In this document: piece after piece, positions 2,949-27,096 of the stretch
Layout: each line of letters starts with the position of its first letter
Position numbering within the stretch: position 1 is the stretch's first letter
Source of the DNA: a virus
Reading direction: 5' to 3' (one strand)
Virus record (IMG/VR): IMGVR_UViG_3300033388_001228
Location: 1-45,710 of that record
Length of the DNA: 45,710 nucleotides
Made by a program: the position numbers and the translations under genes
Notes under the pieces: model-generated
Seen by the model: the letters and a program-made list of their open reading frames with translations, nothing else
Databases searched by the model: none
Told to the model about the DNA's origin: nothing

Positions 2949-3191
2949 CTATAACTTAATCGCCTTCATCTCTTTCACATGGCTCAAGCAATTCTTGCAG
3001 GTTATTCCGCCACGATTAACTTCCTTAAATCTGTAGACCGCGTCTGGATTACGCGCCCCTTCATCAACAAATTCACCAGTACACAATAGACATAAATCTC
3101 CCGAAGCATGTGTTATCACGTGCCAACACTGCTCATCAGGAGGGACATCAAAGCCGTCTTCGTTTACCAGTTGTTTTGTTAGTGTTGTCAT
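2949..3191 (-). CDS. Cys-rich small protein, first gene of leftward operon
   Basis: 80 residues, ATG at 3191. Contains a CLLC pair and a CKNC pair separated by about 33 residues, so a zinc ribbon is likely. It is the first gene after the leftward promoter at 3288-3316. The transcript begins about 90 bases upstream and has an 8-bp inverted repeat closing a folded leader, followed by a CCACCAACAACGAGAG ribosome site that is a loose variant of the start-associated element. Function unknown. Confidence 0.6.
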   Translation of the reverse strand: MTTLTKQLVNEDGFDVPPDEQCWHVITHASGDLCLLCTGEFVDEGARNPDAVYRFKEVNRGGITCKNCLSHVKEMKAIKL

Positions 3192-3316: not shown

Positions 3317-3326
3317 CAGTTGTTGA
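3313..3326. promoter_or_regulatory. Operator-like inverted repeat between divergent promoters
   Basis: TCAACA-GT-TGTTGA: perfect 6-bp arms around two bases. It covers the -35 hexamers of both divergent promoters, so one bound dimer could silence both. The same arms occur at 11203 and 13451, also at promoters. The likely ligand is the Cro/YdaS-like protein at 13177-13419 (inference). Confidence 0.55.
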
Positions 3327-3351
3327 CATAATAGTTAATCGTTGCTATATT
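3323..3351 (+). promoter_or_regulatory. Rightward sigma70 promoter
   Basis: TTGACA (3323-3328), 17-base spacer, TATATT (3346-3351): a near-consensus sigma70 promoter. Predicted start is near 3358, giving a leader of about 145 bases before the first cassette gene at 3505. That leader contains the hammerhead ribozyme. Confidence 0.75.
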
Positions 3352-3435
3352 CAGTGTGTATTAGAAATAAGCTGCACGGCACAGGATAATGTCGGGTTGA
3401 GGAGAAGCCGGACAGTAGACCGGAAACGAATCAAC

Positions 3436-3487
3436 AAGTCTGCAACATAGCAGTTGCACTGATGAGGCCTGACGCTGGCCGAAACTA
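3436..3487 (+). ncRNA. Type III hammerhead ribozyme candidate
   Basis: All conserved hammerhead parts are present in order. Stem III 5' strand AGT (3437-3439), cleavage triplet GTC (3438-3440), stem I TGCAAC-ATAGCA-GTTGCA (3441-3458), core CTGATGA (3459-3465), stem II GGCC-TGACGCT-GGCC (3466-3480), core GAAA (3481-3484), stem III 3' strand ACT (3484-3486). Cleavage is predicted between 3440 and 3441. Position 10.1-11.1 is G-C as expected. Stem III is only three pairs, so activity might need flanking tertiary contacts or dimers. The ribozyme lies in the 5' leader of the cassette operon; cleavage would leave a 5' hairpin 64 bases before the first ATG. Confidence 0.75.
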
Positions 3488-3504
3488 CCACCGAGGATCT
3501 AACC
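3473..3504 (+). promoter_or_regulatory. Start-associated leader element, copy 1 (fused to hammerhead)
   Basis: CGCTGG at 3473, then ACTACCACC at 3484-3492 followed by GAGGA and an ATG at 3505. The first bases double as the 3' side of hammerhead stem II and its GAAA core, so this copy is built into the ribozyme. The start lies 21 bases after the first A of ACTACC. Confidence 0.65.
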
Positions 3505-3675
3505 ATGAAGCAGCATAACAACCTGAGTCTGTCTGACGTCCTGATCGCTATTGCGCTGGCGCCAGTATCCAATAAGCACAACCCTTCGGCAGCGGCTCTG
3601 TCCGTCACTCCCAAGGGTCAGCACTTAGTTAACCACTACATTGGCGGCTACCACTTCTTCACGGTCGCCAGTTAG
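3505..3675 (+). CDS. Small cassette protein, unknown function
   Basis: 56 residues, ATG at 3505 preceded by ACCGAGGATCTAACC. Translation begins MKQHNNLSLSDVLIAIALAP and continues into a His/Asn-rich C-terminus with two closely spaced aromatic patches (IGGYHFFTVAS). It is the first gene behind the hammerhead-containing leader, so its ribosome site is brought near a new 5' end if the ribozyme cuts. Too short for a family assignment; the strong ribosome site and position make it likely real. Confidence 0.55.
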   Translation: MKQHNNLSLSDVLIAIALAPVSNKHNPSAAALSVTPKGQHLVNHYIGGYHFFTVAS

Positions 3676-12703: not shown

Positions 12704-12780
12704 TGGAGCAACAGGCGGGAGTCGAACCCGCAAACATCTGAGTGAAAGTCAGATGGCTTTACCAATTTGCCTACTGCTGC
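12704..12780 (-). tRNA. tRNA-Glu (anticodon UUC)
   Basis: Minus strand cloverleaf of 77 bases with encoded CCA: acceptor GCAGCAG/CTGTTGC (one G-T), D arm GGC-AAATTGGTAAA-GCC, anticodon arm TCTGA-CTTTCAC-TCAGA (anticodon TTC, the same loop as bacterial tRNA-Glu), variable TGTTT, T arm GCGGG-TTCGACT-CCCGC. The discriminator base is T, unusual for Glu where G is common. Sits between the repressor operon genes and the small membrane protein. Confidence 0.9.
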
Positions 12781-17799: not shown

Positions 17800-17885
17800 C
17801 TGAAATAACGATCAGGGCCGTGTTTTGGCTGGCCCTGATCATCGTTATCTCTGACTTCTTTGGTTACCAATTCACCGTAGGTTAG
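17784..17885 (+). CDS. Possible small membrane peptide over the terminator
   Basis: 33 residues from a GTG at 17784 (or 17781), overlapping the end of the thermonuclease. The sequence contains TEITIRAVFWLALIIVISDF, a plausible single membrane helix, then FGYQFTVG. AAGGGAG lies upstream at a wide spacing. The coding part contains the convergent-gene hairpin, so the hydrophobic sequence may be a by-product of that structure. Low confidence. Confidence 0.3.
   Translation: MFTWLTEITIRAVFWLALIIVISDFFGYQFTVG
17805..17848. terminator. Hairpin between convergent operons
   Basis: ATAACGAT-CAGGGCC pairs with GGCCCTG-(ATC)-ATCGTTAT: 15 pairs with a three-base bulge. It separates the rightward recombination operon from the leftward virion operon. 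The stem is strong; T tracts on both sides are weak. Confidence 0.55.
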
Positions 17886-20800
17886 GGTGAACCTTCGACC
17901 TCTTCGCATAGTCCTGAATCTGTTTCATCTTCCACTTAATTTGATCCCTGAAATTTTTACTCAGAGAGCGGCGGTTTTCTGAACTCAGATTAGGATCCTT
18001 TAGCTCAAACTTCATCCGACTCTTTATGTCCTGCAGGTCACGCTTCATGAACTTTATATTCACTGCGCGACTACGCTCTGGCTGGATCGGATAAATATTC
18101 ACACCAACAACACGAGCCATTGACTGGGCCAGCGTTGGTTGTGGATTACCCCATCGGTCTTTGTAACCTGAGCCTGCTTGGATGATCTTAGCCAGAGGCC
18201 CACCTGACGTTGTCCATGGTGGCGCCATCAGTGTGTACGTGTAGTTCAATCGACTCAGCATCTGCTGGTATGGAAGGTCGCCGTCACGAACAATCTCTTT
18301 CCGAGTAAACGGATCGACGTTGGTGGACACTGCAGAAATTAAGTTTGCAAGCGGGCTGCCGAACACGCCGGCACCTTGCAGAATATTGCGAGCCTCAACA
18401 GGTTCGCCAGTAACCATGCCCTTACCAACCTCACCGATGTCCTGAGCAATATCAGTCCACGCAGTCCACGGAAAGAAGTAACCCATGTTGGTTGCCATCC
18501 ATCTGCCTTGCTCATCTTTCATTGGCATGATCACGGCATGGCCGCGCTCAATTAACCAGCTTGGCATAGCTTCCTTAAGCGCCTCGATATCATCTTCACC
18601 AACATCATTCATCGACGCGGCAATCAGGCCCATTCCTTTCAGCATCAGGTAGTAAGGCACGAACCTCCACGGCGCAGTCGCAGCAACTTCCAGAAGACGG
18701 GGTAGCACCTTCATGTAGAACGTAAGGAACGGGATCCCGACTGGCGCGTTGCGAGCGGTGCGAATTGTTTTGTTAACAGCTGAGTAATCAAACAGCCATC
18801 GGTTCGCTTCCTGTGCTGCCAGTGCTGGAGTGTTGCCGTTGGTTTCAACTTCGTGAATTATTTTTGCAACCTTACTTAACACTTCAGCGTGCTGATAAAT
18901 CTCACCAGCCTTTTCGATTATCATGCTGGCAACATTAAGCAGGCTCGGGATACTCATCTTGCCTTTGTTGCGAGCCTGAAAGTCTACGAACTCACGCTCG
19001 ATTGCGGCCAGCTCGTTGGCAGAGAATGTTCCGGCAGTTATGCCGTACTCCTGAGCGATCTTATAATACTGTCCGTCCTTTCGTATCTCGCCAAGCGCAC
19101 GAATAAGTAACGGGATCATTTTGTGGATCGGGACTCCGCTTAAGTTAAGCAGAACCCAGTTCGACACAAGGTTACGCACTTGTGATGGCGGGTTAAGAGA
19201 CACCTTCATGACCTTCCACATCTGTGTGATCTTTGTGCCGGTACCGCCATGACTAAACATGCTCATCCACGCATCGGGGTTGTCCTGAAGACCAGCGCCT
19301 GATCCTGCGATGTCATCATAGATTGCGCGCTTCACAATTAATCCGCGTAAAATTCCGTACTGAGGTGTGTCAGGAATTTGAGCGTACTCATCAGCATCGA
19401 ACTGTTCGTCCTGTTGTACGTCGGCAGCCAGCTTCTCGTACTGAGAAGCAAGGCTATCCATCTTACTTTTCTGTGGGCTATCCGATAACTGTGAGGACAT
19501 AGCGCGCAGTCGCTTCGCTTCGTTCTGCAGCCAGAAAGGCGTCACCTCACGCATCACATCAGTCCCGGGGATCTGGATCTGCACGAGTTGGTCTTGAAGA
19601 ACCCAGTTAGGATTCTGTAAAATTTGATCGAAGAATTCCATGATTGCAAGATCACGAGACGGGATTCCTATAGCGCGTGACAACAGGAAGGCTGGATCTT
19701 TGATCTCACCAAGCACAACCTCACGGTATTCTTTTGTTAGATTTTCACTGCGCTTCTTCGCGTAACCCTGCTTCGATAGTTTCTTGCCAGTACCCAGAGT
19801 TTTAATTGCCTTGTCGCCCATCAGGTAAGCAAGGTAAACACGTGGCAAGTAACGGCTCTCGTAATTCTGGAACGATGAAGACGGAATGATGCCGCGCTCA
19901 ACCATCATCTGGCCCATGGAATTAATAATGTTCTTTGCCTTGATAGCGTTCATGCGAACTTCTTTGTCTTCGATGATGCTGGGCTTAACGTCTCTGTCAG
20001 TAAGGTACTCGAACACATTGAGTGATTCTGTTTCACTCAGCTTATTAAATGTTTCGTACAGCAGTCTGGCGGAGTCTTGACCTTGCTGGATGAGCGCCTG
20101 CAGTTTACCGCGTGACTCACGATACGATTCGAGATCAATCAGATCACCGAACCCATCGATTTTATTATCGAGCTGATGAATCCAGTTCATGACGCGATCT
20201 TTGTACGTCTTCTTGTTCTCGTCGGTTATGTCCGACTCCATCTGGTCGCTGGCTTCAGGAGAATTTTCTGTATTGCGGTTTGCGCCACGAGAAAATAATG
20301 GCTGACCATCGAGTGCGGCCTCACGCATTTTGTCAGTGACATCAACAGAGTGAACTCGTGTTTCGGATGCACGATACTCCGCAAACAGCTCATCTCTTTT
20401 TTCTTGTGTAATTCCTCTCCAGTAATCCTGCTGCTCATCTTTTGGCATACCGAGCGCGTCCATCACTCGTTCGCCAGAGATTAAATCTTTAGTATAAAAA
20501 GCAAACTCGGTCGTACCGGTTTTTGCTCCCCACTTTTTAACGTACTTGTTAACAGTCTTCGGTAGGATCTGGTCATAGAAACCTTTCATACCTTGACCGC
20601 CAATCTTTAGATCTTGGCCTGCATAAACTCCGTTAGGTTCTTTTTGTTTTTGTATTTTTTCAGCAAGCTCTTTCCCAACAACAGCATCAAGCTTATCTTT
20701 ATGATGCAGCCCAAAATCAATAGAGTCGCCTCTGGTATCAATCCCCATTATCTGGAATGAGTCAGGCTCTTTTCTGAAAGCTGAAACCTTCTCTAGCTGT

Positions 20801-23800
20801 TTGCTTAAATCATAACGCTCAGCCTGCTGCTCACCAGTAGTCCACGCAATTTTATCGAAACCGTTCTCTGCTGCGTAACGAATCATTCGTTTCATTGCAA
20901 GCAGTGGCCATGACGTCTTAAATGGTGCGTCAGGTACAGTCTTTGGTTCAATCTTCTTTATCGCAACGGTTGGGCCATCCCATCCTGACGCCATCATTTC
21001 TTTCTGGTATTTTTTAGCATCCCCCACATTAGGGAAGAAGTGATGTTCGTCGGAGCTTGGGTTATATACTCTCCATACAATACCGCCTTCAGTACCGTAC
21101 CCTTTTTTGCGGCCAGCCTGATGCCAGTCGCTCTGCACTTCTTCGAGAAATAAAACCTTGCTGCCGTCTACGTCAGTACGTTCGTTCATGCGAACGTGGG
21201 CAATGATGTTTGTCTCCTTAAAGTGAGAGCCTTTATATGTTCCAACTGTTTCATCAGGACGATCACCGGTAACATCAGAGATCATGTCACCAAGAATAGT
21301 TTCGTCTTTGGCCCCGGTCTTCCTGACCGGAATCCTTAATAAAACCTCACGATAATTTTTACCGCCGGCCAGCTGGTAATCGTGGTATTTTGTATCGCTT
21401 AATTCCTGAACGCCATACTCTTCTTCGAGATCAGTCCACGCTTCCTCTTCAGTCTCAAACAAGTTGTGCCGTCTAGCTCCGGCCATCTCTCCAGTAATAA
21501 CGTAGCCGTCTTCAGCGTTGCTGTACTCAACATCAAACATCTCGCGCAGCTTGGTAGCATTATCAACCTGCTCCTTGACCACCTCCTGCACTTCAATTTT
21601 ATTTGCCTTCACATAGTCGAGTACATCGGCCTTGGAAATTTTCGCATCCTGCTCAGCAAGCCAGTCCAGAACTCCAGACCACTCGACCTCTTCAGATTTG
21701 ATCACCCCCTTTTTTACGAACGCATTGATGGTGGCAGCGTACTGTTGACCGGTACCCTTGCCGGGTAATTTGTCGGTCAGCACTGACTCCATGTGTGAGT
21801 AAAATGGTTTCTGAAATCTTGAGAGCAACGGATGGATCGCCTTGGCAACCTGCCAGCTGGCACTGCCGTCGATCATGGTGCCACGCATGCGGCCCAGTGC
21901 GCCGAGGACTTCGTCATCGGTAACCTTGAGTCCACTGAAAACTTTACGCATCCACTGGCGGATCCATGAGATCAGCTGGCGAACGTAGGAATTTGCCGGG
22001 CTGGTTTCAGCCTTCATGGCCAGCCACTCTTCTGCAGCAACCAACCGATCTGCTGGGTTATTCAGATCCAGCTCATATTCGAGCGCGACCTTGCTCATCT
22101 CCTCACGGTTGGACTTGAACACACCCCGGAGGAACGGAACGATGTCATTACCCATGGTGCCGCGAAGCCCGGCGTGACCCAGTACCTCATGGAAGATTAC
22201 CTTGGTTGCGTGATCGGCGCTGGATATGCCGTCGGCTACGAGGTAGACGGTACCGGTAATTGGATCGTACAGGCCATCGACATCGTCCTGAGCATTTGAT
22301 TTTTCTACAAAATCTTTCAATGCGGTCGGCAGATGCAGGTAGTCCTCGACCACCACTATCTGTGGAGCATTCCTCCAAGCGTTGGTGAGCTGCGACACGT
22401 GGGCGTTGAGATCCTGTACGGTGGTTCGACCCTTGCCTCCCTTGCGGAGCATTGGTTTGCGCTGCTGTCTGACCATCTCTGATCTGAGTTCGTCCTGAGT
22501 GAACCGGTTGTACTCGGCCATGTTCAAGCCTTCGGTTGCCTCACGGCCCTGCTCTTTCGCCATGGATTTTTCAGTGCGCTCGAGCATGGTCATGATCGAC
22601 TTGATCGATGGAAGTGTTTCACGTGGAACAAATCCGTACTCGCCCGGGTCGCCAAAATCTCCGGTCAGCACACGGTGCAGGGCATCCCCGATGTTGGTGT
22701 TGTACTCACGACCGAAGTCGGCAGGATTAACCTTGATGCCCATATCTTCCATCAGCATGCGCTGGACACGGAAGGTAACGTCTTCCCACTCGATGGCACG
22801 CTGAGCCTCAAGCAAGGTCAGTGGCTCCAGTTCGACGGTTACCTGACGTTTGGATGGGTGGCCCCGGGTTGCGGCCCATGGTCGACCCATGCGTCCCTCA
22901 CGACGGCTTTCCCCGTAGCGGTCTTGCATGATGTCTGCAGTGATAGCGTGGCCCAGCTCGTGGATGGTGCGCCACTGGCGAGTGTATTCCTCATCCTTGA
23001 ATGATCCGTGAGCCACGCGAGGCTCATAGATCCAGATCACCCCGGTGCCGTAATGCTCTTTCTTGAGCTTCGGTACCGTGAACGTCACCCCGGCGGCAGG
23101 ATCCTCGTGGAACGAGAACACCTTAACCCCATAGCCATACGTGGAAAGGGTTGCACTTGTTTTGCTGGGGTCAGAGATTAACTCATCGAGGTCGTAAATT
23201 TTGAGATCTTCGGTGGTGTCTCGCTCTTCATTGAGGGTACCGAAGCGACCGTAAATCTCCTGCTGCGCTGCAGCTGGATCGGTCAGTCGAGATAGGGGTA
23301 CTGGTGAGGAAGTCTGCCTTTCTGGCGCGGTGTTCCATCCGTATTTGCCTGCGAATTTTTCGTTAATTCGCCCGACTGCTTGCCGCCTACCACGAACCCA
23401 GTCGAGTAGATCGGATCGTCCGGCTTCGCGGATCTGATCTTGATACTCCTCACCCGCTTTTTGTTTGTTCCAGTCGTTTGCATAATATTCACCTTCTGCC
23501 TTAAAGTCAGCGACGTCAATGATATCAAACCCAGCGAACGTGTCAACAATTGTTGAGATGTTTGCTCGATACTTGGCGTCGGTTAATAGTAGCGGCTTGC
23601 CGTCCACATTCCTGAAGTTAATAAATCTCAGGTTGCCGTTGATCATGCTGAACTCAGCGCCCGGCATGACGCTGCTCACATGATCATAGAACTCCTTAGC
23701 CATCTCTGCCGTGAAGGGCGTCTCAGCTGTGATCTCATAGCCAACCGCAGCCTTCTTACCTGTCAGGGTAGGGTCAGCCCGGTGCCACGGTACGGCGTCC

Positions 23801-26800
23801 TGCGTCATGATGATGCCGATCATGTTGGAGTACAGGTCTACGATCTCGCGCTCATATACCCCGGCCTCCTTATCGGCCACCACCTTGGTGATAAAGTTCG
23901 GGCTGATCGATAGTTCGAAGCTGCCCATGCCGTGATCGGTGCGAGAGAGAACAGCGCCAAGCTTCTTCAGGATGACGTCGTTGCCTTCCGCGTCGGTAAG
24001 GATGTCGTAGATGGCTTCGTTATATTCAGCCTTCTGCTCGTCGGTTGCGGAGTGAATCCCCGGGAGGATCCCAGACCCAACTGAAGGCAAGGCCTCCCAT
24101 GTGACCACCTCGGTGGCCCGGTTCAGGTAGTGGGCAAAGTCCACAGCCGCCGGTATCTTGAATTCCTTACCTGCGGCCTCAGCCTTTTCCAGTCCGGCGA
24201 TGTTGCGCGCATAAAACCACAGGGCAGCCTGAGCCTCACGAGGCTTCAGGGTTGTGCCATGCTTTTTGTTGTAGGCGTCGGTGATATCGACGTTCAGGTC
24301 ATGAGCAAAGTCATACTGAGCCTTGCCTGCAGATACCCCATCACCCTTCTCAGCGTACCCAAACAGGCGCAGCATCCAGCGATCCTGAGTGGCCGCCTCC
24401 TCGAACAGGTTGGTACCGAACGTGGAATCGTGCAGGTTCCGGTAGAAGTTCATCAGCTTATCTTCAACGCCCGGAATTTTGGTGGTGAAGTCTTTGGCTG
24501 CCAGCAAGGCCTTGATGTATTTTTTGGTACGATTAGGGAACCGGCCAGCTCGTGGCTCCATGTTTCCCCGGGCAATCTCGTACAGCGACTTGATCGCGGC
24601 GGTGGTGTTACCACCCAGTGAGTTGGCCTGAGAGTAGAACGCGAACAGGCGCACGATATTCTCAGCAACCTTCGGGTCATTGTTGGCCGCAGCCATGATC
24701 GCCTTGCCAGAATTGTCGTACCACTCGAACGTGTCAGGGGCTTGGGCCATATCGCTTTCCATGGCGGTCACCATCTTTTTCACCAGAGCGGTTCGCTTCT
24801 GTGGTGACTTCACGCCCGGAGGTGCGCCGGCAAGATCTCCTGCAGCGTTAAGGTACCGGGCCGTACCCTTCAGTTCGCGGCGAGGTGCGCGCACTGGTTT
24901 CTTTTTCTTGGCCTTCTTCGACATCTTAGGCTCAGCGACGGCAGCCTCTTCAGGCATAGCCATCGCCGTCTTTGGTGTCAGCTTAGTAACGTCCGCCTGC
25001 TGGGCCTGCTTGGTGGTATCCTCTTTCAGCCACGCCTTGAACTCAGGCATGGTCATCTCTACGATGGACTCGAACCCTGCCCAGTCCTTCGCATAGTTGC
25101 CTAGATACTCAGCCTTAGCGGCCTCGGAAGTCTTCGGCCCGATGACAACCTTGTGTTCATCGAACTGTCCGGTGTACGGGTTGTTCTGATTGACGACGAA
25201 TACGGTGTCGGCTGCCTCTGCCCCGTCGGCCAAAAAGACATCAACATGATCCCCGTCTGCGCCCTCTGACTTCTTGATGTAGCCGTAGTGGCTCTCCATT
25301 TTCTGCGACCATTCCTGCCCACCCTCATCCTTACCTGAACGAACAGACCCTTTCGGGTTCTCGATCGCTACCGGTAGACCTTGGACGGATACATGGCCCT
25401 TCTTATAATTCCCAGATTCCTTTTGAGCTTCAGTAGGTTGGGTGTCCACCTCAGCCGCCGCCTGATCAATACCACTCGCTGCCTCCCTTAACGCTTTCTG
25501 CATCTGCGTTTCAGTTTTCCGGGTGATCGCCTCAGTCTTTTTCGTTTCAACTTCCGATGCCATAGCGACGGTCTGTTTGACGTCGGCTACCTTCTTCGGT
25601 GGTGCCATGGCTGGCTTCTCGATGCCGACCTCGACTCGATCCTTCTGGATGGCATCAGCTGTACGGGTTTCATCCATCGCAGCAAAGCCCAGCTCCTGCT
25701 CAAGGCCTTTGATCATGCGCTCTTCTTCTTCATACTTAACGTGAGCGGCTGCGGCTTTCTCCATGAACTGGCTGGAGTCCTCCATCATCTCCTCTTCCCG
25801 GGCCTCAAGCTCGATCTCTGAGGCGCCACCTTCTTTGGCCTCACGATACTCGTCAGCCTTCGCGTCCAGCTCATCACGGCGCTTCTTAAGGTCTTCGTCT
25901 TTCTCGATGTCTGCCTTAACCTTCTCGACAGACTGGCCCCTGACGCCTGCCAGCGTCGCGCTCAGTACCTCGCCCGGGGCTTGCACGAACTCGCCAGCAA
26001 CCTCAGCCATGACCTCACCAGCTCTGATCTCTCCTTCAGTGACCCATTGGGCTGATGCCTCACCCAAACCTCCGAGAGCGCCCTGTACGGGCATCTGTGC
26101 TGTGACATTGAACATCTCCTTAGCCATGGCACTCTTGATGGCCGCTGGCGCCATGGTCTTCGAGGCAAGGCCACCTGATACAGCATCGAGGAACCCGATG
26201 ATTAATGCGCGGGTATTAGCATCTCGCTTCATCTCGTCGAAAAATTCTGGCTCACTGATCGCCTTGAGCATCGCCTGCTCGTTGTTGATATCGACACCCT
26301 GACCATGGAGCTTACTGATCATGGCCTCATTCAGGGATGCGGCACGCTCAACGGTAAAGGAGCCAGACCCCATGCCTGCAGCAAAACCGACTGGCCCCAT
26401 CACCAGACCGCCAGCGACGCCCTTGATTATTGGGATCGTCATCATGGGAAAGCTCCGCACTCCAACCTCAGCGATGAACGAGACAGGGGCAATCTTCGCT
26501 ATGTCCCACGCCTCATCGAACGTGTTCGCCTGCATGACGGCCTCGGACACAGGCGCACGCGGGACGGCGGCGCCCTCCTTCTCGTGACGTCGCTTCGATT
26601 GGAGTAATTCTTTGCGGGTGCTTTCTATGAACTTGCGTTTTTTGGGGATCGCTGCCTTGGACTCCTCCATCCACTGCTCGAACCGATCAGGGTTTTCTAC
26701 CTGCATTTGCCGGGCAAAGGAATCTTCTGGGAACGGGGTTCCGGCCTCGAAGTCCTTGAACATCTTCTCTTTTTCTGCGAGCTGAGAAAGCTCGTCGGTA

Positions 26801-27096
26801 TCCTCGACGACCGCGGCACCACCGGCTGACGCCATCACATCATGGACACCACCCTTAAGGCGCATGCCAAGGCGCTGAAAGAACCCGGTATCTTCTTCGT
26901 ATTTTTTCTGGCGGTGGGTTACGTCTACGTTCTTTGTCTTCTCATCGAACGCTTCACGCACCATGGCAACATCGTCTTCAGGAGACAATGCTGGTGCGAT
27001 ATTTTTCTCGAAGTAGGCGTCGCGTATTGGCTCACGCTCGCTTTCTGGAATCGCCTGAAAGGACTCAGACGCTACGATCTCTTCCCAGCTAGACAT
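17872..27096 (-). CDS. Giant internal virion / polyvalent protein (3074 residues)
   Basis: Last gene of the virion operon. Approximate layout: soluble start WEEIVASESFQAIPESERE; hydrophobic Gly/Ala region about 205-270; coiled coil about 395-480; inorganic-pyrophosphatase-like domain about 567-690 (GHVSVQGLPVAIENPKGSVR, then HYGYIKKSEGADGDHVDVF and FDEHKVV); metallopeptidase signature RTIHELGHAITADI near 1379; second FHEVLGHAGLRG near 1637; polyvalent-protein-associated block EVQSDWHQAGRKKGY near 1987; C-terminal half helical with hydrophobic stretches near 2815. Such polyvalent proteins are known to combine enzymes that enter the cell with the DNA. Position after two internal proteins suggests ejection. 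Confidence 0.8.
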   Translation of the reverse strand: MSSWEEIVASESFQAIPESEREPIRDAYFEKNIAPALSPEDDVAMVREAFDEKTKNVDVTHRQKKYEEDTGFFQRLGMRLKGGVHDVMASAGGAAVVEDTDELSQLAEKEKMFKDFEAGTPFPEDSFARQMQVENPDRFEQWMEESKAAIPKKRKFIESTRKELLQSKRRHEKEGAAVPRAPVSEAVMQANTFDEAWDIAKIAPVSFIAEVGVRSFPMMTIPIIKGVAGGLVMGPVGFAAGMGSGSFTVERAASLNEAMISKLHGQGVDINNEQAMLKAISEPEFFDEMKRDANTRALIIGFLDAVSGGLASKTMAPAAIKSAMAKEMFNVTAQMPVQGALGGLGEASAQWVTEGEIRAGEVMAEVAGEFVQAPGEVLSATLAGVRGQSVEKVKADIEKDEDLKKRRDELDAKADEYREAKEGGASEIELEAREEEMMEDSSQFMEKAAAAHVKYEEEERMIKGLEQELGFAAMDETRTADAIQKDRVEVGIEKPAMAPPKKVADVKQTVAMASEVETKKTEAITRKTETQMQKALREAASGIDQAAAEVDTQPTEAQKESGNYKKGHVSVQGLPVAIENPKGSVRSGKDEGGQEWSQKMESHYGYIKKSEGADGDHVDVFLADGAEAADTVFVVNQNNPYTGQFDEHKVVIGPKTSEAAKAEYLGNYAKDWAGFESIVEMTMPEFKAWLKEDTTKQAQQADVTKLTPKTAMAMPEEAAVAEPKMSKKAKKKKPVRAPRRELKGTARYLNAAGDLAGAPPGVKSPQKRTALVKKMVTAMESDMAQAPDTFEWYDNSGKAIMAAANNDPKVAENIVRLFAFYSQANSLGGNTTAAIKSLYEIARGNMEPRAGRFPNRTKKYIKALLAAKDFTTKIPGVEDKLMNFYRNLHDSTFGTNLFEEAATQDRWMLRLFGYAEKGDGVSAGKAQYDFAHDLNVDITDAYNKKHGTTLKPREAQAALWFYARNIAGLEKAEAAGKEFKIPAAVDFAHYLNRATEVVTWEALPSVGSGILPGIHSATDEQKAEYNEAIYDILTDAEGNDVILKKLGAVLSRTDHGMGSFELSISPNFITKVVADKEAGVYEREIVDLYSNMIGIIMTQDAVPWHRADPTLTGKKAAVGYEITAETPFTAEMAKEFYDHVSSVMPGAEFSMINGNLRFINFRNVDGKPLLLTDAKYRANISTIVDTFAGFDIIDVADFKAEGEYYANDWNKQKAGEEYQDQIREAGRSDLLDWVRGRRQAVGRINEKFAGKYGWNTAPERQTSSPVPLSRLTDPAAAQQEIYGRFGTLNEERDTTEDLKIYDLDELISDPSKTSATLSTYGYGVKVFSFHEDPAAGVTFTVPKLKKEHYGTGVIWIYEPRVAHGSFKDEEYTRQWRTIHELGHAITADIMQDRYGESRREGRMGRPWAATRGHPSKRQVTVELEPLTLLEAQRAIEWEDVTFRVQRMLMEDMGIKVNPADFGREYNTNIGDALHRVLTGDFGDPGEYGFVPRETLPSIKSIMTMLERTEKSMAKEQGREATEGLNMAEYNRFTQDELRSEMVRQQRKPMLRKGGKGRTTVQDLNAHVSQLTNAWRNAPQIVVVEDYLHLPTALKDFVEKSNAQDDVDGLYDPITGTVYLVADGISSADHATKVIFHEVLGHAGLRGTMGNDIVPFLRGVFKSNREEMSKVALEYELDLNNPADRLVAAEEWLAMKAETSPANSYVRQLISWIRQWMRKVFSGLKVTDDEVLGALGRMRGTMIDGSASWQVAKAIHPLLSRFQKPFYSHMESVLTDKLPGKGTGQQYAATINAFVKKGVIKSEEVEWSGVLDWLAEQDAKISKADVLDYVKANKIEVQEVVKEQVDNATKLREMFDVEYSNAEDGYVITGEMAGARRHNLFETEEEAWTDLEEEYGVQELSDTKYHDYQLAGGKNYREVLLRIPVRKTGAKDETILGDMISDVTGDRPDETVGTYKGSHFKETNIIAHVRMNERTDVDGSKVLFLEEVQSDWHQAGRKKGYGTEGGIVWRVYNPSSDEHHFFPNVGDAKKYQKEMMASGWDGPTVAIKKIEPKTVPDAPFKTSWPLLAMKRMIRYAAENGFDKIAWTTGEQQAERYDLSKQLEKVSAFRKEPDSFQIMGIDTRGDSIDFGLHHKDKLDAVVGKELAEKIQKQKEPNGVYAGQDLKIGGQGMKGFYDQILPKTVNKYVKKWGAKTGTTEFAFYTKDLISGERVMDALGMPKDEQQDYWRGITQEKRDELFAEYRASETRVHSVDVTDKMREAALDGQPLFSRGANRNTENSPEASDQMESDITDENKKTYKDRVMNWIHQLDNKIDGFGDLIDLESYRESRGKLQALIQQGQDSARLLYETFNKLSETESLNVFEYLTDRDVKPSIIEDKEVRMNAIKAKNIINSMGQMMVERGIIPSSSFQNYESRYLPRVYLAYLMGDKAIKTLGTGKKLSKQGYAKKRSENLTKEYREVVLGEIKDPAFLLSRAIGIPSRDLAIMEFFDQILQNPNWVLQDQLVQIQIPGTDVMREVTPFWLQNEAKRLRAMSSQLSDSPQKSKMDSLASQYEKLAADVQQDEQFDADEYAQIPDTPQYGILRGLIVKRAIYDDIAGSGAGLQDNPDAWMSMFSHGGTGTKITQMWKVMKVSLNPPSQVRNLVSNWVLLNLSGVPIHKMIPLLIRALGEIRKDGQYYKIAQEYGITAGTFSANELAAIEREFVDFQARNKGKMSIPSLLNVASMIIEKAGEIYQHAEVLSKVAKIIHEVETNGNTPALAAQEANRWLFDYSAVNKTIRTARNAPVGIPFLTFYMKVLPRLLEVAATAPWRFVPYYLMLKGMGLIAASMNDVGEDDIEALKEAMPSWLIERGHAVIMPMKDEQGRWMATNMGYFFPWTAWTDIAQDIGEVGKGMVTGEPVEARNILQGAGVFGSPLANLISAVSTNVDPFTRKEIVRDGDLPYQQMLSRLNYTYTLMAPPWTTSGGPLAKIIQAGSGYKDRWGNPQPTLAQSMARVVGVNIYPIQPERSRAVNIKFMKRDLQDIKSRMKFELKDPNLSSENRRSLSKNFRDQIKWKMKQIQDYAKRSKVHPNLR

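Follow-up and report, generated by a model that had tools for sequence, protein, structure and literature searches.

A type III hammerhead ribozyme motif in the 5' leader of a putative early operon of an uncultivated phage

The DNA analysed here, called the window, is a stretch of 45,710 nucleotides from an uncultivated virus record (IMG/VR, IMGVR_UViG_3300033388_001228), and it carries a complete type III hammerhead core at positions 3437-3486 of the + strand. The motif follows a promoter and precedes the first gene of an operon of small genes that runs rightward; it is on the sense strand of that operon and is almost certainly a genuine hammerhead. Judged from its sequence, it very probably cleaves the early mRNA that carries it, within the leader and shortly before the first gene. 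Taken as a whole, the observations are best explained by a type III hammerhead that is functional and is situated in the 5' leader of an early phage operon, a reading that we hold with moderate confidence. The motif, canonical type III by its sequence and placed in the leader of a phage operon, is of a known kind, and such a placement has already been reported once; the locus is of value as a simple test case, and so is the regular placement seen among phage hammerheads.

As shown in Table 1, the anatomy can be read directly from the letters. The invariant hammerhead core (NUH triplet, CUGANGA and GAAA) is present as GUC (3438-3440), CUGAUGA and GAAA (3481-3484), and stems I, II and III of 6, 4 and 3 bp are arranged around it, of which stem III is open and weak. 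The final A of GAAA is also the first A of the 3' strand of stem III (3484-3486). An earlier note on this DNA had named a type III hammerhead in a phage mRNA leader and had listed a GTC triplet, a 6-bp stem I with a 6-base loop, CTGATGA, a 4-bp stem II with a 7-base loop, GAAA and a 3-bp stem III. All of these parts were found in that order with every base as listed, and the naming stands in view of the intact core, the match to the Rfam model RF00008, the covariation among phage relatives and the promoter conserved in a relative.

Table 1. Features of the hammerhead locus in window coordinates.
Feature	Positions	Strand	Basis
Sigma-70-type promoter TTGACA-17-TATATT, TG preceding the second hexamer	3323-3351	+	11/12 consensus positions; hexamers and spacing conserved in L003
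5' leader fragment, predicted to be released, ending at C17	3358-3440	+	Position relative to promoter and cleavage site
Segment missing from L003 (7 nt instead), holding leader and ribozyme up to A14	3364-3483	+	Comparison with L003
Type III hammerhead ribozyme, predicted cleavage between 3440 and 3441	3437-3486	+	Intact core, RF00008 match, covariation in relatives
Stem III 5' strand AGT	3437-3439	+	Direct reading
C17	3440	+	Direct reading
Stem I, TGCAAC with GTTGCA, 6 bp	3441-3446, 3453-3458	+	Direct reading
Stem I and loop I AUAGCA, which would become the 5'-terminal hairpin of the cleaved mRNA	3441-3458	+	Direct reading; fold of 3441-3560
Loop I, 6 nt, ATAGCA	3447-3452	+	Direct reading
Loop I AGC, predicted partner of loop II GCU	3449-3451	+	Loop complementarity, kept in L096 and L537
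Core CUGAUGA	3459-3465	+	Direct reading
Stem II (4 bp, GGCC 3466-3469 with GGCC 3477-3480) and loop II UGACGCU	3466-3480	+	Direct reading; identical in L096
Loop II, 7 nt, TGACGCT	3470-3476	+	Direct reading
Loop II GCU, predicted partner of loop I AGC	3474-3476	+	Loop complementarity
Core GAAA and stem III 3' strand ACU	3481-3486	+	Direct reading
Shared leader element ACTACCAC with ribosome-binding site GAGGA	3484-3497	+	Recurs before other operon genes and in L003
First operon gene, 56 aa, no known family	3505-3675	+	Homologue in L003 starts at 1444

The near-consensus promoter that the note had placed upstream of the hammerhead is present, with all but one of the consensus positions matched, and points to a transcription start near 3358. 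The gene upstream of the hammerhead (2949-3191) lies on the opposite strand; therefore, the hammerhead sits in a true leader. The distance from the predicted cleavage site to the ATG at 3505 is 64 nt, as previously stated. The small unknown genes of the operon and the replication genes nearby suggest that it is expressed early, and its last gene encodes a 259-aa protein weakly similar to phrog_1221. The proteins encoded in the window include head, tail and internal virion proteins, a helicase, RecT, a RecE-like protein and SSB, and the major capsid protein is 49% identical to its counterpart in Rhizobium phage RHph_TM3_14A. Among annotated phage records, no DNA match was obtained for the operon, nor for the hammerhead regions of the uncultivated-virus loci L096 and L090.

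The element ACTACCAC with a GAGGA-like ribosome-binding site occurs at 3484, 4001, 4201, 4383, 5023 and 6340 of the window (+ strand), just before several operon genes; one ACTACCAC copy is found at the 3' end of the last gene of the operon, and the element also occurs in L003 at 1424 and 1925. It is possibly a shared translation or regulatory leader. The repeats before the other genes were considered as degenerate hammerheads and rejected, the core being absent and the model giving no match.

In the Rfam comparison that the earlier note had proposed, RF00008 (Hammerhead_3) was the top match of the region with 27.6 bits (E = 0.0066 for a 3.8-kb piece, E = 0.08 for all of the window); however, the score lies below the gathering score of 48.5 bits, and a default scan at that score misses the hammerhead and reports only a tRNA. 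The gathering score is a database cut-off and not a biochemical feature, and 16 of 17 other phage type III copies scored with the same model also fall below it, the remaining one reaching 48.5. A descriptor scan of the whole window for all three hammerhead types returned this motif as its single match. In 1780 simulated windows with the dinucleotide make-up of the window, type III matches with stems of at least 4, 3 and 3 bp were found 10 times (0.006 per window), and none of the 1780 contained a type III match with a stem I of at least 6 bp and a stem II of at least 4 bp. Folding energy alone was uninformative (z = -0.61). The heptamer CTGATGA is over-represented in the window (21 against 9.5); as a sign of further hammerheads this excess was dismissed, since just one copy is accompanied by the remaining hammerhead parts.

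The search pattern for related elements combined a fixed core with free stems (AGTC..CTGATGAG..CGAAACT) and gave 49 distinct viral matches. Pairing in both stems was found in 19 of them, against an expectation of 0.19 (largest value 2) when halves were exchanged between matches of the unfiltered set, and in 13 of 77 matches from a bacterial and archaeal genome collection, against 0.14. An alignment of 15 type III sequences, in which stem III is fixed by the search pattern, contains 59 double-change cells compared to 14.5 after shuffling, and the covarying pairs comprise all of stem I and three of the four pairs of stem II. Standard pairs make up 99.5% of the pair cells, against 25-42% when the alignment is slid, a percentage that is inflated by choosing rows by stem length, whereas the exchange test on unfiltered matches is unaffected. 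When the pattern was changed to GGTC/CGAAACC, at least 120 matches were obtained, and 46 of those listed were valid type III elements having a different stem III pair. On this comparative evidence, the window hammerhead is part of a real phage family in which stems I and II have been rebuilt by compensatory changes.

L096 has stem II and both loops as in the window with a new stem I, and in L537 every stem differs, loop I being AUAGCA and loop II UAAUGCU; thus, both keep the loop I AUAGCA and the loop II GCU of the window together with other stems. A contact between AGC(A) of loop I and (U)GCU of loop II therefore seems to be conserved; in the window it would comprise only 3 bp (AGC/GCU), with the same complementarity in L096 and L537. 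Among the matches listed, 24 of 61 type III elements show loop-loop complementarity of at least 3, a significant excess over the 11.5 obtained after shuffling (largest value 21 in 2000). Comparison supports the hammerhead fold and favours the predicted loop contact. That the motif is a chance resemblance and no hammerhead is extremely improbable: it would fit the score below the RF00008 gathering score, but nothing equal arose in the simulated windows, and the loops are common to L096 and L537 although the stems differ.

The near-twin L002 represents almost the same phage (99% identical) with an identical motif. L003 is a sibling with 72-82% identity to the window in long matching pieces, which keeps the promoter hexamers and their spacing, the ACTACCACC-AGGA-ctaaccATG leader and a homologous first gene. 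It is without the ribozyme segment of about 113 nt, having 7 nt where the window has 120, and forms a natural minus control for the window hammerhead. As L003 does without the ribozyme, the ribozyme is dispensable there; two lineages, those of the window and L003, do not decide between gain and loss. The sole relative with the same operon that keeps this ribozyme is L002, and because it is 99% identical, conservation in the window lineage is unsupported. The 3' strand of stem III is the start of the shared ACTACCAC element, and the ribozyme is thus fused to the shared leader, which may be the cause of the short stem III.

A hammerhead that was gained by recombination, is now slow or inactive, and is tolerated with the old ribosome-binding leader intact behind it would be consistent with the nearest relative having no hammerhead, with the lack of a diverged lineage keeping it, and with a stem III of only 3 bp and a nested fold that is favoured over the hammerhead. 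However, all core bases, all pairs of stems I and II and the predicted loop contact are intact, the orientation and placement are those of hundreds of other phage hammerheads, and L089 likewise has a 3-bp stem III. We therefore regard such a remnant as quite unlikely.

For a functional hammerhead, the course of events may be proposed as follows. Host RNA polymerase would start near 3358, as the promoter sequence suggests; the nascent leader would fold with the assistance of the AGC/GCU contact between loops I and II, and the RNA would cut itself after C3440, both of which are consistent with the comparison of relatives. From hammerhead chemistry, the weak 3-bp stem III would then let the 83-nt leader leave, and the mRNA would begin with a 5'-OH and the 6-bp stem I hairpin, followed by stem II and the ribosome-binding site. 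About 83 nt would thus be taken off, leaving a 64-nt leader headed by the stem I hairpin. The product would have a uniform 5' end without the leader and would stand outside the 5'-monophosphate decay route (RppH, then RNase E), so the early mRNA could be longer-lived and evenly translated. This functional consequence, comprising the uniform 5'-OH end, the escape from 5'-monophosphate-dependent decay and the longer-lived early mRNA, seems to us about evenly poised between holding and failing. RNase E cuts 5'-hydroxylated RNA poorly, while direct-entry cleavage, which is indifferent to the 5' end, also exists, and E. coli apparently has no kinase for hammerhead-made 5'-OH ends (PMC4191395); these facts on decay in E. 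coli may fail to apply in the host of the window phage.

As a point against activity, the hammerhead fold scores 1.9 kcal/mol above the best nested fold, in which the GUC triplet is paired, with tertiary contacts uncounted; cleavage may therefore be slow or incomplete. In L089 and L090, a competing nested fold is preferred likewise, to a similar or lesser degree. An active ribozyme could also serve to unblock translation, by cutting away an 83-nt leader that hides the ribosome-binding site or retards its use, with mRNA decay not being the point; in a variant of this explanation, the weakness of stem III and the alternative pairing of GUC could make cleavage slow or conditional. The leader does pair with the early coding sequence in the full-length fold, the nested fold disrupts the core, stem III is short, and the positions of phage hammerheads are locked to ribosome-binding sites. 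However, the full-length fold does not exceed shuffles in stability (z = 0.12) and leaves most of the ribosome-binding site unpaired, and L003, which is without the leader, needs no removal, so that unblocking appears rather unlikely as the main role.

Alternatively, the main product of an active ribozyme could be the 5' fragment that is set free, about 83 nt long and ending in a 2',3'-cyclic phosphate, which would act as a small RNA. This fragment belongs to the segment missing from L003 and folds somewhat better than shuffles (-16.5 kcal/mol, z = -1.47), but this z value falls short of significance, L002 alone yielded a relative of the leader, and the upstream sequence of other phage hammerheads is unrelated; this role is very unlikely.

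The preferred reading, a leader cut that sets the mRNA 5' end, can be compared with the places of hammerheads in other phages. Types I and II were sought by rearranging the same core into its two remaining circular orders, which gave at least 120 matches each. Among the matches listed, 36% of type I, 56% of type II and 68% of type III hammerheads have, no more than 40 nt downstream, a start codon that is equipped with a ribosome-binding site and opens a reading frame of at least 60 aa. The corresponding shares are 0-3% for the antisense side and 5-7% for random positions, in counts for which the reading-frame rules are crude and the loci phylogenetically non-independent. The distance from hammerhead to start codon is about 20-30 nt on the sense strand for types I-III (medians 21-28). 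This regularity argues that phage hammerheads act on mRNA 5' ends and are not stray repeats. Promoter enrichment upstream of hammerheads generally gave no signal.

After cleavage by a type I hammerhead, a single strand of stem I forms the beginning of the mRNA, and no hairpin of the ribozyme is left on it. Because type I, with its hairpin-less product, occupies the same place, the cut and the 5'-OH are likelier to be the common purpose than a hairpin cap. The earlier suggestion of a hairpin-capped mRNA 5' end gives the right anatomy for type III; however, it is unlikely as a general purpose, since type I lies at a similar distance without the hairpin, and the cap thus characterizes type III and is probably not the purpose that the types have in common. 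Hammerheads of all three topologies might be a standard phage device that fixes the mRNA 5' end (5'-OH, fixed short distance before the start codon) and has been repeatedly recruited to the same spot, the selected trait being cut position and end chemistry and not sequence, topology or leftover hairpin; we put this forward tentatively, as possible but somewhat short of probable.

Two generalizations about type were rejected. Among the matches listed, an upstream same-strand gene adjoins 140 of 165 type I and II hammerheads and 5 of 18 type III hammerheads of the first set (p = 8e-7; clustered p = 1.5e-4), as if type III marked operon leaders and types I and II lay between genes. In the replicate set with the other stem III pair, the type III count was 29 of 46 among the matches listed (p = 0.003), a much weaker contrast, and no rule is claimed. 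Likewise, type III appeared to be the rarest in phages (24 against at least 120 for types I and II), but the GGTC variant also gave at least 120 matches.

Relatives sharing operon proteins with the window carry type I hammerheads in L030, L042, L066, L393 and L394, and type II hammerheads in L031 (four times), L079, L081 and L391. A swap of type at one boundary was considered for L391, L393 and L394 and discarded, as the operons are related but the downstream genes differ, leaving a common site unsupported. Hammerheads at several gene boundaries of one transcript are present in L089, L090 and L031, and not in the window, which has a single hammerhead. At their successive boundaries, L089 (3110-4312, +) and L090 (4345-6036, -) have type III first, at the operon head, and type II or type I at later ones, and L031 (4862-6840) has four type II hammerheads, one ahead of each of four consecutive genes, one of which is a homologue of the 259-aa operon protein of the window.

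The type III members of RF00008, from plant satellite RNAs, viroids and plant retrozymes, share with the window the GUC/CUGAUGA/GAAA core, three stems, an open stem III and closed loops I and II. In contrast, the window copy is single and lies in the mRNA leader of a DNA phage, not in a circular RNA; its stem III has just 3 bp, its loop-loop contact is predicted to be Watson-Crick AGC/GCU, and it scores below the gathering score. Theta ribozymes of gut phages are another self-cleaving class in phage genomes tied to RNA processing, with an HDV-like fold and a tie to tRNA-based recoding instead of mRNA leaders (PMC10879173).

Bacterial and phage hammerheads were described by Perreault et al. 2011 (PMC3088659), including HHphage of haloviruses HF1/HF2, PaP3, Bcep176, and prophage clusters, with hammerheads flanking prophage genes. 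The halovirus hammerhead precedes the initial gene of an operon by 13 nt, and a transcript 5' end was mapped within 3 nt of the cleavage site (PMC3088659). These cases resemble the window in the phage location, the place close upstream of a start codon and the loop I-loop II pseudoknots, which in the window are predicted, and HHphage also in its position ahead of an operon's first gene. In contrast, HHphage comes from an archaeal virus and is a structural variant, whereas the window hammerhead is canonical, the window operon has no second hammerhead, and a ribozyme-less sibling is known. The earlier note called the role in phage mRNA leaders largely unexplained, and a review calls the role of hammerheads in bacteria and phages an open question (PMC6155905); the prophage and halovirus cases show that the literature is not empty (PMC3088659).

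Likenesses are also found in the type III loci of uncultivated viruses (L096, L537, L085/L090/L101/L102, L089, L091 and L095), which have a 6-bp stem I, a 4-bp stem II and 13-22 nt from hammerhead end to start codon, as in the window. They differ in their unrelated downstream genes (ArdC-type anti-restriction protein, PAPS-reductase-like, GP88-like) and, in most, in a longer stem III. Since many phages place such motifs before genes at the same spot, the unexplained purpose becomes testable, and the window locus is a simple test case, in which a single ribozyme follows a single promoter, cleavage would not split off any upstream gene, and a sibling with the same promoter and ribosome-binding leader has no ribozyme. 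The window phage and L003 form a minimal natural pair for testing the idea that the cut sets the 5' end.

Some further observations concern the same sequences. The window contains an open reading frame of 3074 aa (17872-27096, -), of which the tested 999 aa match no PHROG family, and a tRNA-Glu (ttc) gene (12704-12780, -). In L096 (7842-8774), the type III hammerhead with the loops and stem II of the window lies 22 nt before an ArdC-like anti-restriction gene. In the Dojkabacteria MAG contigs L470 (2539-3130) and L460 (350-854), a type III hammerhead is found in intergenic repeats flanking a small gene, and the repeats in L470 are 75 bp long at 96% identity.
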